Assembly: GCA_019914995.1 (NCBI GenBank)
Contig: CM034135.1
Location: 188,501-252,500, forward strand
From: Acanthochlamys bracteata
Taxonomy: Eukaryota > Streptophyta > Magnoliopsida > Pandanales > Velloziaceae
DNA length: 64,000 bases
Direction: 5' to 3'
The notes below the pieces were generated by a model. The model ran no database searches. It was given only the letters and a program-made list of their open reading frames with translations, and had not been told where the DNA came from. The position numbers and the translations under genes are program-made. Each line of letters begins with the position of its first letter. The stretch's first letter is position 1. This document shows, piece after piece, positions 1 through 44,661 of this stretch.

Positions 1-1965
1 TTTCCGGTAGTGGTGGTGGTAGGATTGTTGATCACAGATGATCCTGAAGAAGAAGGACTACTACCTATGCCTGCAGTGCTTGATGCGGATCCAGGATTCA
101 TGCCTACAGGATTAGGAGTGTTATTGTTGTTGTTGTTCACGCCTGTGTTCGCAGCTGGACTGAAGCCTGCACCTCCAGAACTGCACAAAAGATAAGTAGC
201 AGCTTTCATATTTGCTTTCTTGGTTATAGCTTTATACAGATTTTGATCTGAACACTGGATCTATGTATACCTCGATGACGGATAGATGCAAGTCGCAGTA
301 CCTATCAAAAACACCAAGCATGCTTTGTATCAGTAACGGTAATCAGCAACAATACGATCGTGTATCATGTTCTATGATCTGACTTGTATCGATTGACAAA
401 ATACAGGATGAATTCTTCTTACTTGGATTGGCATTGGCGAGCACGGCTGTCCCGCCAAAATCACAGCTTGTTGGCGTCGGATTCCTTTGATAGTAGTTGT
501 TAAAAGCATACGAAGCATGTGCCTGGAGAGTGTTGGGATTATAACAGCTACCTGTTACCTGAATAGGCGAACAATCAGCTCCTCCAATACCACAAGCATA
601 ATCAATAGCAAGCTGCAAAGCTTGATCGGTCACTCCTGTCTTAGCGACACACCAGCTCTGCCCTCCAACACTCGGTGAAACTGGAACGGCACTCGGTGAT
701 ACCGGAACCGTACCGGGATTACTAGTAGGTGTCCCGGAAGGGATCGTCCCGGGCGATTGAGGAATTGGATAAGTTGTAACGGGATTAGTTGTCACTGGAG
801 GAGTGACTGGAAATGCACTAGGAGGAGCTGTGATCGGAGTAGTCACAGGAATCGCTGGTGGGGTCATGACCGGATTGGGGTAAGGGTTTGTAGCAGGCAC
901 TGTTACGACCGGAGCTTGCGGGTTTGTGGGTGGATTGGTTACGGGTGTTGGCGTTGTAGGATTTGTGGATGGATTGGATAAGGGTGGTGCTGGTGTTATT
1001 GGGTTTGTGGGAAGAACGGTGACAGGATTGGTTCCTGGAACTGTGACGATATTGGGAGGGTTTGTGGAAGGAACGGTGATGGGCGGCATTGTTACAGGGT
1101 TTGTCACTGGACTGTAGGTATCATGGATTGTTGTTCTTGTTTCAGAAGCCCCATTGCTCAGCAGCTCTCTGCGTGACCAAGATGAAAAGATTGGAGGATT
1201 CTTGTTCTCCGGTATGCCCAGTTCTGCAGTAATGTCGATAAACAAACAGCGTTGGTACTCAAGAAAATTCAAGATGTAATCTTTTCAAGGACGAAGTGTA
1301 AAACATTATAACGTCAAGAATTTAGTTCTACTAACCGCATTGAGAATGCCAAGAATATTAAATCAAGCTCTACCGTGCTGCTGAAAACAGTTTTTCACAA
1401 GAACATATGAACAAATTGAAAAGGTAAACAATCAAACCTGATAGATGTTGTTTGGTTCCATTAAATTAGAAGAAACAAGCTGGTATTTCTACTATATATG
1501 TCTTTCTTACTTCTCCATTCTAGCACTACACTCTTTGTTTAATTTATTAATTAAAGCATCCCCTGGAACTCCCTACTACAAACACATAAAACTCAACTCA
1601 GTATCAACAAAAATAATCCTGAAATTTTCAGAAGATTGTAAGCAAAATTTGCACTTAATTTACTAAGAAGCTTCATTCAGATGTTTAAAGCAAATGGGAA
1701 TTTTAATTTCCTGATCAAATCATATGCTGCCTTGAAATTTTATAAACTAAGAACTGAAACCAAAGTACACAGTACATATATCCAAGAAAAAGAAATAGAG
1801 AGATTGCGTCTTTAACTAAAAGAAGAAAATTCAGTGAGAATATGAAAAGAATTAATCACGAGAAAGAGACTCACCTGAGCAGCAGCAGCAGCAGAGAGTA
1901 AGAGATGAGAAGATGAAAAACAAGAGAGGAGCCTCGGCAGCCAAAACTGTAGTGAAAGCAGCCAT
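1..1965 (-). CDS. X8-domain (CBM43) cell-wall/GPI-type protein, 3' partial
   Basis: Model: exon 1 1965-1875, exon 2 1223-398, exon 3 from 180 to beyond the window start; phases agree throughout. The protein opens with a hydrophobic, signal-peptide-like stretch ending in five consecutive cysteines. A long Pro/Thr/Asn linker of TNP-type repeats follows, then an X8 domain (SWCVAK, YACG, ADCS, GSCY, SCDFGG, SCIF) with six cysteines placed as in the family. The last exon is Ser/Gly/Asn-rich, as in X8 proteins that end in a GPI-anchor signal, but the anchor itself lies outside the window. X8 domains bind callose-type beta-1,3-glucan, and related proteins (PDCB) act at plasmodesmata or in the wall. 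The long TNP linker resembles Arabidopsis At1g79480 as I remember it. The exact exon 2 donor (398) was chosen on phase. Function beyond glucan binding is inference. Confidence 0.85.
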
Positions 1966-2269: not shown

Positions 2270-4830
2270 GGTTTGTATTAAAATAATAATCTTTATCCAT
2301 TCGTGCCAACTTTCTGCAAATTCTCAAGTCGAACAAAATCTATACACACTGTTCTTCACGGTATGTTAATGCGCACGTATATGCGTGCTCAATTAGCTCG
2401 TATTTCAAATATTTATAATTGATATTCGGAAAAAAAAATAATTAAAATTAAAATTTTTGAAAAATATGTTAAAAATTAAAAAATATAATTGTATTGAAAA
2501 ATATATAAATAAAAAAATTAAAATTAAAATTTCGTATGTAAAAATAAAATTATAAATTTTTATATAATTAAAATATATAAATTATTTGAAATTTAAAATT
2601 AAAAAAAAATAAAATTATGAACACGACTTAATGATCTTCGAGCTCTGTTGTCATTGTTCGTCAGTTTGGCTCCGGATTTATTTCAAATATATTAAAATTT
2701 TATTTTTGATGAATACATTAGAATGTATAAATATTTTAAAAGATTATTTTTAAAAAAATTAATTAAAATTTTAGGTACTTAAAATATACAATTATGATGC
2801 GTTTGATTAAGTATTTTTCAAAATTTATTTCTACATTCTATTTTATAATTTTTAATAAAATGTTTATAATATTATATATAATTGATTTTTTATTTAAAAA
2901 ATATAAAAAAAATTTACATATTATTATTATTTAAAAAAATAAAAATCATTTATTAAAATAAAATAAAAATAATTTTTAAAAGAATTCTTAAACACTTATA
3001 GAGTGGGTGGTGAAAGATAAGACTGCTTTAAATTAATCAGCTTTTTTTTTTTATAAAAAAAAATCTTTGAACAGAGTGCTGAGTCTGCAAAAGTTCTTTC
3101 TGAGGCATGTCCATGTGCTCTGCTTTCTCCGCATCTTATTTGTTAAAAAAAAAAAAAAAAAAAAATAAAAGGAAGAAGAAGAAGATCACCATTTTGTTAT
3201 CTTGATCAACGAAGCTTTATCATCCAAAACTCAAGTGGATCAGTGATGCACTCTTCGTTTTCTCTTTACCAAAAAAAAAACATAAAATAATAATAATAAT
3301 AAAAGTTTTCTAATTAGTTCTTAAGCATATTCTTGTTCTGCTGAGTGTTTCTTTGTATGACTTAGACTAGAAGGAACATGTACCGCCGCTAATAAAAGTA
3401 TCTGATGCATTCTTTCTCGGCTGATGTTTCTTTTCTTTAGCAGGAGGAAATTTTAAGATGTTCTTTCTCAAAATATTTGTAAAATTTCTTTTTTTTTTAT
3501 AATCTTATTGGAAAGTCGGTTTAAATAGATTTGAGTAGCTTTCAGTTTATATGAATGAGTGGGATACACGTTCATAGACTTTTGCATGCATGCACTACCT
3601 CATAGATTTGTCCGAAAGCAATGGAATAGATCAGTCTAATTTGTAATGTATAGAGTTAGTATGTTCTAATAAAATATGAACTAATTTAATAAGCTATAGT
3701 CGAATTAATATCGTAAATATATGAAATAATATTTAAATATAAAATGTTTCAGCTAATTTAAAAATGGATAAATAATTTATTTTGAATTGGACAAAATGAA
3801 TTTTATTTTGACAGAAACTTAATAGTTTAAACTTTTTAATAATTTTATATTAATTATATATTAGAATAATTATATATTTATAAGTAATAAATGCTAATTT
3901 TTAAAAAATTAGATAATTTTTTTAGCGCGGAACAGGATCATCAAGTTAAAAGCAACTCCATTAGAATTCAATTTTATGTTTAAATATAAATATTAAGCAA
4001 CCAATCTTGTCGTTTTATTGACACTTCAATAAAGTCACCAGCTCAAACTCAATTGCAGTTGTTGTATTGTTTAATAAGTTGCTGGATGGAATTTTATTAA
4101 GACTAGTTTCCATGTTCTGGTTGTTCTTGTTCTGTTTTCTTGATCATGACATTATATAGTTTCTTTCATTAATGACATTTAAATTCTGTGATTAGACTGC
4201 AATCACAACGATCCACCAAAAGAAATAGATTAAGAAAAACGAAACAGATCTCTTGGTAATCTTCTATAATTGGAGATTATATTAAAACTGTAATGGAAGA
4301 ACGGAAATGGTTACATGTCAAATTTTAGGGGGCGTTTGAGATTGCTTATGAAATAGAGCTTTTGTAAAATGAAGGGTATTTTTGTCCTTTTTGAAAAACG
4401 AGCTCTATTTTTTTTACTTCTAAAAAAATAATAAAAATATGTAATAAAAAGATCTCACTCCGTAGAATTTTTCTACACTTTCTAAATTTTTAAATAAATT
4501 TTTTATATATTTATAAAATATGTATTAAAAAACGTGAAATGGAGAATTGAAAAATTGGGTTAGGAGAAAGTAAAGCCAAACACCCCCTTAATAAATTTCT
4601 TGAGGTTCCCTCGAATCAGAAGCATGATTTTGCTTTCACAAAAAGAGGCAAGGTAGCGTTTCTTTTCAATAGATTTTAGGGAAAAAAAGATCTTCAGAAA
4701 TTTCATAACATTTCAATTAAAATTCCCACCAATTTTTTGCTGGCATTAATTTTTGGATACATCCAACTACCTGTATATACATGAAAAAAGAAAGATTGAA
4801 TCTTGTCAAGAATAAATCCTGTCATAATTG
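2270..4830. other. Gene-free AT-rich intergenic region
   Basis: No convincing coding region on either strand. It holds A/T homopolymers (for example the A run near 3145-3165), short TAA repeats near 3285-3303, and AT-rich stretches suggestive of decayed miniature elements. One such stretch at about 2797-2998 is bounded by TGATGCGTTTGA-like and TTAAACACTTA-like ends, too degenerate to call. A clear MITE is listed separately at 4328-4587. A TATATAC at 4773-4779 may belong to the downstream receptor-kinase promoter. Confidence 0.6.
4328..4587. mobile_element. Tourist-like (PIF/Harbinger) MITE
   Basis: A 260-bp AT-rich non-coding element. The left end reads GGGGGCGTTTGAG, and the right end on the opposite strand reads GGGGGTGTTTGGC, giving imperfect terminal inverted repeats. 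Both ends are flanked by TTA (4325-4327 and 4588-4590), the target duplication typical of PIF/Harbinger-type MITEs. The interior encodes no transposase, so it would be non-autonomous. Its interior resembles the element near 44.4-44.7 kb. Confidence 0.75.
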
Positions 4831-5302: not shown

Positions 5303-6175
5303 GTATTGTCGATTGTTATCATGGATTTGTGCTGAAATTTGGTTTGTTTTGATTTTCATCTCATGGGTATTTGTTTCTTGTGTAATTGAATGGACAGATT
5401 CAGAGTCTTTGTCTTAACCAGAATGAATGAAATTGTTAACCAATATGAAATGAAATTGCTATGCTGTTAATGCTGGTCTAGATTATAGATGACCTTGATG
5501 TATTGTTGGTGAGAAAGATTTGGTCTTGCTCTTGATGAAACAATGTTGCATGTGTGAGTGGTCGAGCTCCATGGGTAGCTATTTGGAGTTCTTGGTGGCT
5601 TACTTTTGTGCACGTGAGTCTACGATATCTCTAGCTTTGAGTTTTATGTCTCTTCAGTAGAGTTTCTACAATGCGTTGGTAACTGTCTGTAGTTTCAAAT
5701 AGTCATCTAAGCGAAAGATCAAGGTTCAAGCTCATCAACCAGAAAAACTAATCTGTAGGTCTGCAAGTAATATTTGATAGGGAGACCTTGGAGCTTGTAA
5801 AACGACAAAGTTGAAGCTCAATTGAGATTGTATTAACAAGCTACATTTATGTATACATATTAATTTGGGTCTAAATGTATCAGCAAACATTACTGCTATA
5901 AACTAACCAAAGGAAAAGAACTACTCCTACTATTTTGATGTGCTAGCTATATTAAGATGAAGCTCACAGAGCCAAATATATCCCTATCATATATATGCTG
6001 TGCCAAAGACATCACCGTGTAATTTGTTTTACAGATTTACATAATTAGCAGTTTTGCCGTCTGTTCTGTGAATGTGGAACTTTTGTTTGGTTGTTTGTTA
6101 GCAATGTTCTAATGTTATTATTTCCTTTAAGTATCCTTGTTTTTTTCTTGTTGCAGGAATACTGACACCAGAATT

Positions 6176-8552
6176 ATGTCCTCCACAGATACTTCTCTCA
6201 ATGAGCATTTATCAGGCAAAACAAATGTCTTTGGCCTAAAGATATGGGTTGTGATTGGGATAACTGTCGCAGTCTTCATTTTATGTGTTCTTTTGCTGCT
6301 AATCTTATATGTCAATATCCAGAGCAGGAAGAGGTCAAGAAGCAACTCAAACTTACCTAAAAGTCAAATTCCAACCATTTCAAAGGAAATTCAGGAAGTC
6401 AAACTTGAGCCGTTCTCAACCAGCAACTTTGTCGTACATGATGGAATTCTTCTTGCTATTCAAGACAAATACAGTGGTGAGGAATCTGAAAAGGTCATGG
6501 ACCAATTAGGTATACGAAGATCAATATATGGAGGCACGGGCAGTTTCTCAGGCTCCTTTCACGATATGGAAAATGATGGCAGCTTCTTGTCAAGTGGAGG
6601 AGGATCAGGAAACATGTTTATTCACAGGGCATCTTCACAATACCCAATATGTGCACCTTCACCTTTGGCAGGTTTACCAGAGGTTTCTTACCTTGGTTGG
6701 GGCCACTGGTTTACACTGAGGGACCTTGAGCTAGCAACCAACCAATTTTCAAAAGACAATATCCTCGGGGAGGGTGGTTATGGTGTTGTCTACCGTGGTC
6801 AGTTGCTCAACGGAACACAGGTAGCTGTTAAGAAGCTGCTCAACAATCTGTAAGTTGGAACTTCGATATTTCTTTTGAAAAGCTGCTAATAACTCATATC
6901 CAAGGCATCATGCTTTGCTTAGAGAGAGCTTTAACACTTCTCATTGCTCTTTAATTTCTTTAAATGTTCCAGAGGTCAAGCTGAGAAAGAATTTAGAGTA
7001 GAGGTTGAGGCTATCGGTCATGTGCGCCACAAGAACTTAGTCCGTTTACTTGGCTACTGTGTGGAGGGAACTCAAAGGTGTGTGTTTATCATATTTGTTT
7101 TTGTTTATAGAAAATTTCCCCAACATGCCTATACCATGGCTATTCTTTATTCTGTTTAAATTATAGCATGACATCCCCAGTTCTCTAAACGCAGTCTTCA
7201 TGTTGCATCTTAAATCTTCAGGATGCTAGTCTATGAGTACGTCAATAATGGGAACTTAGAGCAGTGGCTTCATGGAGCAACTAATCAACTAGGTTCTCTT
7301 ACTTGGGAAGCTCGTATTAAAATTCTCCTTGGCACGGCTAGAGCGTACGTTACTCTTTCTAACTTAGTGTTCTTCATTGTTTGAATGCCAAGTAGCTACA
7401 GCGTCATCCTCCTGTGTTTTATGTGCTGCTACGTTTTTTTCCTCAAGTGCAGAATTATTTATAAAAAACTTTCTTTACATGCTTTTACAGACTTGCCTAT
7501 TTACATGAGGCCATCGAACCAAAGGTAGTGCACCGTGACATCAAGGCTAGTAATATATTGATCAATGATGAATTTGATGCCAAAGTGTCTGATTTTGGTT
7601 TAGCCAAGCTCCTAGGTGCTGGCAAGAGCCATATAACCACCCGAGTCATGGGAACCTTTGGGTATATGACTTAGCTTGCTTCTTAGTTAATTGCCAACAC
7701 AACCACCTTGATGTTTTAAACAACCAAACTGATGACCTCTTGTAATCTTTAATTTCCTTTAACAGCTACGTAGCACCGGAATATGCAAATACTGGACTGC
7801 TGAATGAAAAAAGCGACATATACAGCTTTGGCATTCTTCTCCTGGAGGCAATTACTGGAAGGGATCCTGTTGACTATGCCCGTCCTGCGAATGAGGTTCC
7901 AAATCTTATTGTCTCATTCGTTTTACGTTTGTCTCTCCTTTTCCTTCTCTCCACATTTATTACTCGTGCTTCTTTGCACAGAATTTTCCCAAGTAAATGG
8001 ATGCATTCTTTCAGTGTGAAAATTGTTTTCATTCTTCTGACTAGTAACGTATGTTATTATATCCAGGTGAACCTTGTTGACTGGCTTAAAATGATGGTAG
8101 GCAATAAGCGTTCGGAAGAAGTGGTGGATCCAAAGTTGGAGCGAAGGCCATCAACAAGGGCACTAAAAAGGGCCCTTTTGTCGGCACTTAGATGTGTCGA
8201 TCCAGATTCAGAGAAGAGACCGAAAATGAGCCAAGTGGTGCGGATGCTGGAATCTGATGACCCAATGCCATGGGAGGTTTGATCCTTAAACAACTCCATG
8301 GTTCATGCTCGCACTAACGCATTAACAAGTTCCGCATAAACAACATCGTGCATACACAATACTGTTTTATTGTAGGATCGAAGGCATAGGAGGAGCCGAG
8401 GCAGAAGCAAAGACCTAGATTCTCAAAAGGCAGCAGAAAATTCCGACAACAAGAAGACTGATGCTTCTTCATCAGACAACAAGAACAAGAACAGCAACAG
8501 AAGGAACAAAGCATCATCATCATCCAACAACAACAACAACAACAACAGATAA
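6176..8552 (+). CDS. Receptor-like protein kinase, At3g59110/At5g18500 subfamily
   Basis: Exons 6176-6849, 6973-7077, 7222-7344, 7491-7661, 7766-7895, 8067-8276 and 8376-8552 give 529 residues. A short N-terminus is followed by one membrane segment (about residues 22-47), a Ser/Gly-rich juxtamembrane region, the subfamily signature [12 protein letters not shown], and a Ser/Thr kinase domain. The kinase shows [33 protein letters not shown] and APEYANTG, so it is predicted active (RD type). There is no recognisable extracellular ligand domain, as in this subfamily. The Arg- and Ser-rich C-terminal tail ends in a run of seven Asn codons from an AAC repeat and is probably disordered. An upstream non-coding exon near 4.9-5.3 kb joins at the acceptor 6155-6156. 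Subfamily placement is strong; ligand and pathway are unknown. Confidence 0.93.
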
Positions 8553-42500: not shown

Positions 42501-43415
42501 AGAAAGGACTTCAGAGTTTTTCTCTTCAGGAGTTCGTGAAATTAAACCATTACACATCGTCGAAGCTGTTCACCAGTCAGGTGTGAATTGCTTACATGTC
42601 TCGGTTTGCAAGGTTACTCCATTTTCAGAATCTGAAACTGGATACTGTATTCTAAGTGGTGGGGATGATCAAGCAATTAAGTGCATAGCATTTGATTTGG
42701 TAACACAAGTTACTCCTTGTAAAGTATCAGGTATATCTGCATTTATGGAAGTGAGTGTGCGTCTGAAGCATGATTTATCTCGGAGAATTTGTTTTGCTGA
42801 TTGACATTGGACGTTTCTCAGGAGCAGGTTCAGATACAAGATGTTCAAATGGTAGCCTTAACAATTATGATCTTCGAATAATTTGTTGCGAAAAGGTCGA
42901 ATCAGCTCATAGCTCTGCAGTTAAAGGTAAACTATGATGTTTAAATTTTAGATCGGTTATGCATAAATTAAATGATATGTGGACGTTACCCACTTGATCA
43001 TTCGCAGCAATATAGAAGCCCAACTTGTGTTTAAGTTTTGGGTTCACCTTCCTCTAATTATACTTGTTTTTGGTTTACTGTGTAGGGATCTGGACTGATG
43101 GCATTTGGGTTTTCTCTACTGGTCTTGATCAGCGAGTAAGATGTTGGCAATTAGATGAGTACTGTAAACTCAAGGAGCACTCGCATATTATCGTGAGTGT
43201 ACCAGAGCCAGAAACGTTGGATGCAAGAGCTTGTGGACGGTAGTTTGTCTCAACTTCCTTTTCCTCTAGTTTCCCTACATTGTTCTTTGTATTAAAAGAA
43301 CTTCATCCATGTGTAAACAAGCATATCTATCAATGGCAGGAGCTTATACCAAATTGGAGTAGCTGGAAGGGGCATGCAGATGGTGGAGTTCAATCTATCT
43401 GCTGATTCTGACTAA
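36534..43415 (+). CDS. WDR6-like: WDR6 homologue (WD40 protein, tRNA 2'-O-methylation partner)
   Basis: Twenty exons: 36534-36899, 37012-37105, 37230-37312, 37399-37604, 37695-37830, 38125-38207, 38319-38528, 38716-39057, 39165-39327, 39589-39780, 39858-40067, 40154-40246, 40414-40613, 40689-41231, 41312-41392, 41706-41791, 42131-42730, 42822-42926, 43086-43239, 43340-43415; 1340 residues. WD repeats run through the whole protein (CLAVGLSDNSVAMWDLK, SDDRSARIW, VVTAGEDCTCRVWG, SGSTDGSIMFWDL, STGLDQRVRCWQLDEY). The order and the motif GRGIWRCLYDP match the WDR6/Rtt10 family. In yeast and mammals this family partners the Trm7/FTSJ1 2'-O-methyltransferase on the tRNA wobble nucleotide; that role is assumed here. 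It lies head-to-head with the TatB-like gene. Exon 17 (600 bp) carries a family-variable polar insert. Confidence 0.9.
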
Positions 43416-43794
43416 AATTAAAATGGTTTGTGTTTGTACTCGATATCAAGTCCGCAGCAGGCCTCTTTACATCCACAGGAGTTCATCAGATTTATTTCTT
43501 GGCTTTTTAGCAAGTCTCATACCCCCATTGTGATCAAAGTGTTGAGGATTTCTTTGCTTTGAAGTCTTTTATACTTCAAAAGTTTCGCATATGCACCACA
43601 CTTGTAGACATCAGTAATTTTTGCCATCAAGTTATCCATTGCCTGTACTTATGTTTGTTTGTGGATTCATTGACATTGTGCGCTTCCATTGTTCTGCACT
43701 TCATATCAGGAGTTTGCAGAATTCTTGTAAACGGGGAGAAAAGTTCAAATCTGTATAGTGCTTTCAATAGCACTATTGCATTTGATAACTAGTT

Positions 43795-44196
43795 TCATTT
43801 TCCAGGGACAAAGTTGCTGGCATATGCCCTGACGTTATTGCTCACAGGGTCTGCAAAGAGAGGTTCCTTTCTGCTGGCGATGGCCTGAAAAAAAGAACCC
43901 GAACATGGAGAATTTTGTGAGCGAGCCTTCCGTTCTTGATCTCCTTCACCTTCAACTCCGCAAACGCTTCCGGATCATACGCCAACTCCGAAGGATGCCT
44001 CTAGGGTACAACGTGTTGGTCACTTCACCGACCGGCGCGCCGCTATACCGACACGGCATCCTCAACGGCGCCCATGAGGATGGCCTGACATGCCCAGATT
44101 GCAGGAGTGCTCTGTGATCTTACGCATAGTGAAACGGGGTTAAATCGTTGATTGCGAGCCAGACTTGCCGGCTAGTGAAGGAGAAGATAGAGCCAT
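43795..44196 (-). pseudogene. LHCB1 pseudogene: LHCB1-type chlorophyll a/b-binding protein pseudogene
   Basis: Read on the minus strand, the relic starts at 44196 with MALSSPSLAGKS, an LHCB1-type transit peptide, and soon hits a stop, then FTMRK, the end of the LHCB1 transit region. It then jumps, in another frame, to AIWACQAILMGAVE of the third-helix region, then [11 protein letters not shown], then [19 protein letters not shown], then FSMFGFF. It ends [19 protein letters not shown] and stop (43797-43795), the usual LHCB C-terminus. Several frameshifts and stops break it, and most of the middle of the roughly 265-residue protein (helix 1, stromal loop, helix 2) is deleted. LHCB1 genes usually lack introns, so duplication and retroposition cannot be told apart. 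The stretch is GC-richer than its surroundings. Not expressed as a light-harvesting protein. Confidence 0.9.
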
Positions 44197-44420
44197 TGTT
44201 GCAGAGAGATTTTGGGAAAGCCAAGGCGATTCGAAGAATTTCCTAGGAAGCGGGGAGAGATTTTCTAGGAAGAACTGGTTCAGAATTATGAAAAAAAAAA
44301 AAAAAAGAATTCAATCTATTAAAAGTTTAGAAATATTTTTGAAAAATATAGTAGCTGGCCGCTCATTAATGGGATTCGTAATACCGCGTGTAACAAAACT
44401 AACCGTGTTTTTGGCTGGTA

Positions 44421-44661
44421 CGGGTCGTTTAGGAATACTTTATAAAATAAAGTTTTTTTTTAAATAAAAAATATTTTTTTTAAAAATAAATATTATTATT
44501 TTTATTTAAAAAAAATATAATAATAAAAAATTTTATTTCGTAGAATTTTTTATAATTTTTAAATTTTTAAATAAATTTTTATATATTTTTAAAATATATA
44601 TTAAAAAATATAAACTAAAAAAAATTGGAAAGTATTTTTTGAAAAGCTAGACCAAACCGTG
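44421..44661. mobile_element. Degenerate MITE-like element related to the one at 4.3 kb
   Basis: The block from 44539 (CGTAGAATTTTTTATAA) to about 44610 aligns with 4461-4535 of the first MITE, sharing AAATTTTTAAATAAATTTTT and the following A/T pattern. The outer ends (CGGGTCGTTTAGG; on the other strand ACGGTTTGG) are diverged inverted repeats. The target duplication is not clear. It sits between the LHCB1 pseudogene and ATG8. Confidence 0.5.

Follow-up and report, generated by a model that had tools for sequence, protein, structure and literature searches.

The minus strand between a gene named WDR6 and an ATG8 gene carries a relic that, judged by its homology and lesions, is an LHCB1 pseudogene. 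It is probably, with a chance that we put at roughly three in four, an LHCB1 gene that belonged to an old paralogous segment and decayed in place. The homology, the lesions, the deep divergence from intact genes, the scarcity of changes at codon positions 1 and 2, and the gene order in common with other segments are direct observations. The window, i.e. the whole stretch of 64,000 nucleotides that was analysed, corresponds to C10:188501-252500 of Acanthochlamys bracteata (C10 being contig CM034135.1), and searches of the plant's own genome covered 195.5 Mb in 557 contigs.

Homology and lesions of the relic

The query was a nucleotide HMM of the five LHCB1 genes that are intact in the same genome, two on C12 (C12a and C12b) and one each on C13, C14 and C7; the coding sequence (CDS) of each is a single open frame. 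At E<=1 the window contains exactly two nhmmer matches to this model, both at the relic, on the minus strand and colinear. In 21 control sequences (the window reversed, and 20 shuffles of it in two-base blocks), no match to the model was obtained at E<=10, the best score being 0.9 bits, and the relic embedded in shuffled sequence was recovered with unchanged scores. The relic has the following parts:

44204-44118 (envelope to 44209), minus strand: remnant of the LHCB1 transit peptide, CDS ~8-112 (nhmmer, 20 bits, E 1.1e-6; alignments to the C13 and C12a genes)
44116-44118, minus strand: deletion junction, with ~357 bp of the LHCB1 CDS (~112-470 of 807) absent (nhmmer)
44116-43795, minus strand: C-terminal remnant of LHCB1, 338 nt, CDS 470-807 (nhmmer, 196 bits, E 7.8e-60), ending in NFVPGK-stop

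The initial annotation had described a broken LHCB1-type gene running on this strand from its transit peptide to its exact C-terminus, and both ends were found: MALSSPSLAGKS is readable from the ATG at 44196, and SNFVPGK-stop terminates at 43795. Since this ATG aligns to the second methionine of MAASTM, LHCB1 homology begins slightly upstream of it, at 44204. The transit peptide is LHCB1-type, with the motif MALSSPS.AGK, which distinguishes LHCB1 from LHCB2 (the C12b gene differs from this motif by two residues); the remnant breaks off at the remains of the VTMRK motif. A free-gap alignment of the relic with the C14 gene scatters the transit region, long gaps being cheap, and was set aside; the alignments to C13 and C12a agree with nhmmer. 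The LHCB1 pieces are spread over all three minus-strand frames and match in one colinear order, the outcome by which a translated search was expected to support the pseudogene. One of the five minus-strand pieces matches PF00504 in Pfam (E 9.3e-5), and the other four give no PF00504 match at E<=1; the relic is one of 41 PF00504 matches in the plant's own genome. A DNA search of that genome gave 11 matches besides the relic itself: eight are ~330 bases long and 67-69% identical to it, and the remaining three are short, with identities of 81-93%.

Since the transit and C-terminal pieces abut, a single deletion of ~357 bp joins the transit region to the third helix; inspected by eye, its junction shows microhomology of at most 2 bp. 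Alignment to the intact genes places seven small indels in the last third of the relic (about -1, +5, -7, +4, +1, -11 and -7), and the internal stops are one TGA and two TAG. With these frameshifts, stops and large deletion, all of them anticipated in the initial annotation, the relic has neither the one open frame nor the three membrane helices of a functional LHCB1 and cannot encode the full protein. Sequence analysis gave no sign of present function for it.

The relic was also correctly described as richer in GC than its surroundings. In 200-base windows within 43800-44199 the GC content is 0.51-0.565. Towards WDR6, from 41000 onwards, it is 0.345-0.455, and between 44100 and 45100 it is 0.11-0.445. 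The overall value of 0.54 is like that of the same part of the intact LHCB1 genes (0.53-0.57). An AT-rich repeat adjoins the relic at 44420-44660; among the matches listed it occurs at more than 30 other places, mostly at 80-85% identity.

Divergence and age

Comparison of the relic with the intact LHCB1 genes at fourfold degenerate sites gives differences of 31/53 (C12a), 34/55 (C13), 28/52 (C12b), 35/51 (C7) and 34/55 (C14), a range of 0.54-0.69, each count being small (~50 sites). Reference values among the LHCB1 genes themselves are 76/132 for C12a/C13 (0.58, the oldest split), 50/146 for C13/C14 (0.34) and 47/140 for C12a/C7. The depth of the relic is therefore about that of the oldest LHCB1 split and exceeds that of the pairs from the large-scale duplication (0.34). 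Even for C12b, the closest LHCB1, the difference of 28/52 over the last 342 nt exceeds the 50/146 of C13/C14 over the whole CDS (Fisher P 0.02). On these counts, the line of the relic is old.

Fourfold sites alone place the relic no nearer to LHCB1 than to LHCB2, and the nearest gene is the LHCB2 on C4 (27/53); the corresponding counts are 31/54 for a broken LHCB1 copy on C20 and 25/46 for a broken LHCB2-type copy on C6. The relic is nearer to LHCB1 (29-31/210) than to LHCB2 (36/210) when codon positions 1 and 2 are compared. In a tree of 342 columns it groups with the LHCB2 pair, with a support of only 66. As for the two broken copies themselves, the one at C20:3776347-3776850 has a 1-base deletion and stops, is 97.6% identical to C12b over the CDS, and has a flank that matches C12b at 74% identity over 2.4 kb; it may be recent, or older and homogenised by gene conversion. 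The one at C6:10686323-10686649 has a gap of ~112 bases in the CDS and groups with the C4 LHCB2 with support 99.

Among codon positions 1 and 2 that are invariant in the five LHCB1 genes, the relic is altered at 17/175 (CI 0.058-0.151), a count obtained under four of five alignment gap settings, the loosest of which gives 11/159. For calibration, K4 is 0.41 for the SAM synthetase pair on C10/C15, 0.32 for the first exon of the kinase on C13/C14, and 0.45-0.46 for LHCB1 pairs; half of this range (0.32-0.46) gives a neutral branch of ~0.16-0.23 since the large-scale duplication. The change of the relic at positions 1 and 2 amounts to about half (0.45-0.65) of this per-branch fourfold divergence, and the upper limit of its CI is about the low end of the branch. 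Since this change is only about half of the post-duplication branch, constraint probably ended after the large-scale duplication. These comparisons suggest that the relic lineage was probably under constraint long past its split from the other LHCB1 genes.

Gene neighbourhood and alternative readings

The gene to the left of the relic owes its name WDR6 to the initial annotation; its WD40 matches are weak and extend also to other WD40 proteins. Two more distant genes of the window link it to other LHCB1 loci:

346-1284, minus strand: exon of an X8-domain gene (Pfam X8)
6131-8279, plus strand: exons of a protein kinase gene, which we take to be receptor-like (Pfam kinase match)

The order X8 - kinase - LHCB1 is common to C10 (188.8k/194.6k/232.3k), C14 (3547k/3533k/3526k) and C13 (4166k/4186k/4203k), so that the X8 gene and the kinase are neighbours in both the segment of the relic and the paralogous segments on C13 and C14. 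Orientation varies, the X8 gene being inverted on C10 and the LHCB1 on C13. The best two of 31 non-self matches of the window X8 gene are C14:3546837 and C13:4166530, which lie 20-37 kb from the respective LHCB1 genes, beyond the kinase; on C14 the kinase paralogs and LHCB1 are separated by 4-7 kb, on C13 by ~15 kb. None of the other genes of the window had a match (E<=1e-4) in either of the 40-kb regions surrounding the C13 and C14 LHCB1 genes, and the 20-kb regions surrounding the C12a, C12b, C7 and C20 LHCB1 loci contained no match to the kinase or to the X8 gene. Two neighbours of the C14 gene that were searched matched themselves alone and were thus uninformative. A kinase paralog on C8 outscores those on C13 and C14, and C8 is without any PF00504 match, which counts against decay in place. 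A likeness of the 3' flank of the relic to C14 past the stop was discarded, the alignment being gappy and the C13 and C12a copies examined not reaching so far.

Of the 31 X8 genes, six have one of the eight LHCB1/LHCB2 loci no more than 40 kb away, as against a mean of 0.08 when placement is random; with duplicate pairs counted once and the two C12 loci treated as one, the simulated P(>=3) is 0.00015, for a 40-kb limit that was picked after the hits had been seen. Further X8-domain genes within this distance of LHCB1/LHCB2 loci are at C4:65529, C6:10674301, C14:3529808 and C13:4192219. More speculatively, and as an idea that we would rate as doubtful, X8 genes and LHCB1/LHCB2 might form an unusually old neighbourhood that survived several duplications; the relic, dying late on a heavily thinned segment, would then have a history of long constraint followed by loss, in contrast to the rapid excision that is commonly described for gene duplicates in plants.

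The homeologous segment C15:140-178k is collinear with the window through the kinase, an SBP-domain gene, an ABC transporter and the SAM synthetase. The relic interval itself has been lost from C15: after a scrap of WDR6 at 168.6k, collinearity resumes at 175.0k, and one weak match at 170.7k (54.8%) is out of order. Apart from the scrap, no counterparts of WDR6, ATG8 and BEACH were found in C15:168781-175019 (tblastn E<=0.01; blastn E<=1e-3). As this interval is deleted, residence of the relic before the C10/C15 duplication cannot be read there, a further point against decay in place. Elsewhere in the window, a repeat of ~270 bp at 4319-4603 has more than 30 copies among the matches listed at 94-97% identity, and is possibly a recently active miniature transposon.

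For decay in place, we propose the following course: (i) a duplication predating that of C10/C15 and C13/C14 would have left more than one ancestral segment with LHCB1, X8 and the kinase, (ii) the LHCB1 genes on C13 and C14 would have stayed intact, while the C10 copy would have worked for long and then lost constraint, and (iii) one deletion of ~357 bp and several small indels would have broken the C10 copy, the other intact LHCB1 genes remaining. The gene would thus have been resident at the site before the large-scale duplication and lost constraint after it, presumably through redundancy. Alternatively, a DNA segment or a retrocopy of LHCB1 could have landed between WDR6 and ATG8 and decayed there; we regard this as unlikely, even though the GC content of the relic stands out from the flanks and the C20 copy, so close to C12b, could be a recent duplicate. 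However, the relic has no close parent among the intact LHCB1 genes, given its fourfold differences of 0.54-0.69, and the X8 - kinase - LHCB1 order is shared. Nor is there any A/T run of at least 8 between 43401 and the stop, where an old tail could nevertheless have decayed; the sole such run within 43401-44420, 16 A at 44291-44306, lies 5' of the relic. The fairly recent arrival from a GC-rich gene that had been proposed initially is not supported, given the lack of a close parent among the LHC genes compared (28/52 to 35/51 for the intact LHCB1 genes and 27/53 for LHCB2, as against 50/146 for C13/C14) and the common gene order, and for the same two reasons we prefer a resident gene to a recent insertion.

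Two other readings concern what the locus might do at present. The initial annotation had pointed to an open reading frame (ORF) that could be mistaken for a small gene:

43905-44117, plus strand: 70-codon ORF antisense to the relic, confirmed

Its 70 open codons are what would speak for a real gene whose likeness to LHCB1 is incidental; we give this next to no credence, as the 94-aa open stretch around the ORF has no Pfam family at E<=1, the longest antisense open stretches in the five intact LHCB1 CDSs reach 136-244 aa, and the opposing minus-strand LHCB1 match has E 7.8e-60. In addition, the stretch matches the C13 LHCB1 gene read in antisense (E 3.7e-5). As had been suspected, the ORF is most likely no gene, and appears to be a by-product inherited from LHCB1 codon usage. 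It is very improbable, too, that read-through from WDR6 transcribes the relic in antisense and makes it a source of small RNAs directed against LHCB1. At 43930-43954 the relic is identical over 25 nt to the LHCB1 genes C12b and C14, and WDR6, whose open stretches are on the plus strand, is directed towards it, but the 25 nt fall in a well-conserved motif and we found no further pointer. For annotation, the plus-strand ORF should stay unannotated, and the relic would be listed as the LHCB1 that an old paralogous segment has lost.

Comparison with known systems

LHCB1 is the major antenna protein of LHCII and belongs to PF00504; the relic shares its transit peptide, third-helix motif and NFVPGK terminus, without encoding the full protein. 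In soybean, most duplicated LHC gene pairs are reported to have undergone whole-genome duplication (PMC9820578). Among the papers listed by a literature search on Lhcb1 pseudogenes, none has an LHCB1 pseudogene as the subject of its title, and a search that combined Lhcb1 with light-harvesting, gene loss and whole-genome duplication gave no paper.

In maize, short direct repeats are inferred to have flanked the deletions in lost duplicates (Woodhouse et al. 2010, PMC2893956). The fractionated paralog pseudogenes of maize, as they are described there, resemble the relic in that one duplicate was lost in situ, partly by deletion, with fragments still recognisable; unlike them, the ~357-bp deletion, with its microhomology of at most 2 bp, has no clear repeat signature.

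In a survey of gene loss after duplication in plants, excision is reported to dominate and relics to be rare or very transient (Yu et al. 2020, PMC7775554). The C15 stretch that corresponds to WDR6-LHCB1-ATG8-BEACH, almost traceless, is alike in this respect, whereas the relic on C10 is still readable, perhaps because its constraint ended late. Set against this rule, the relic would be a modest exception and a readable example of the late loss of a duplicated antenna gene.
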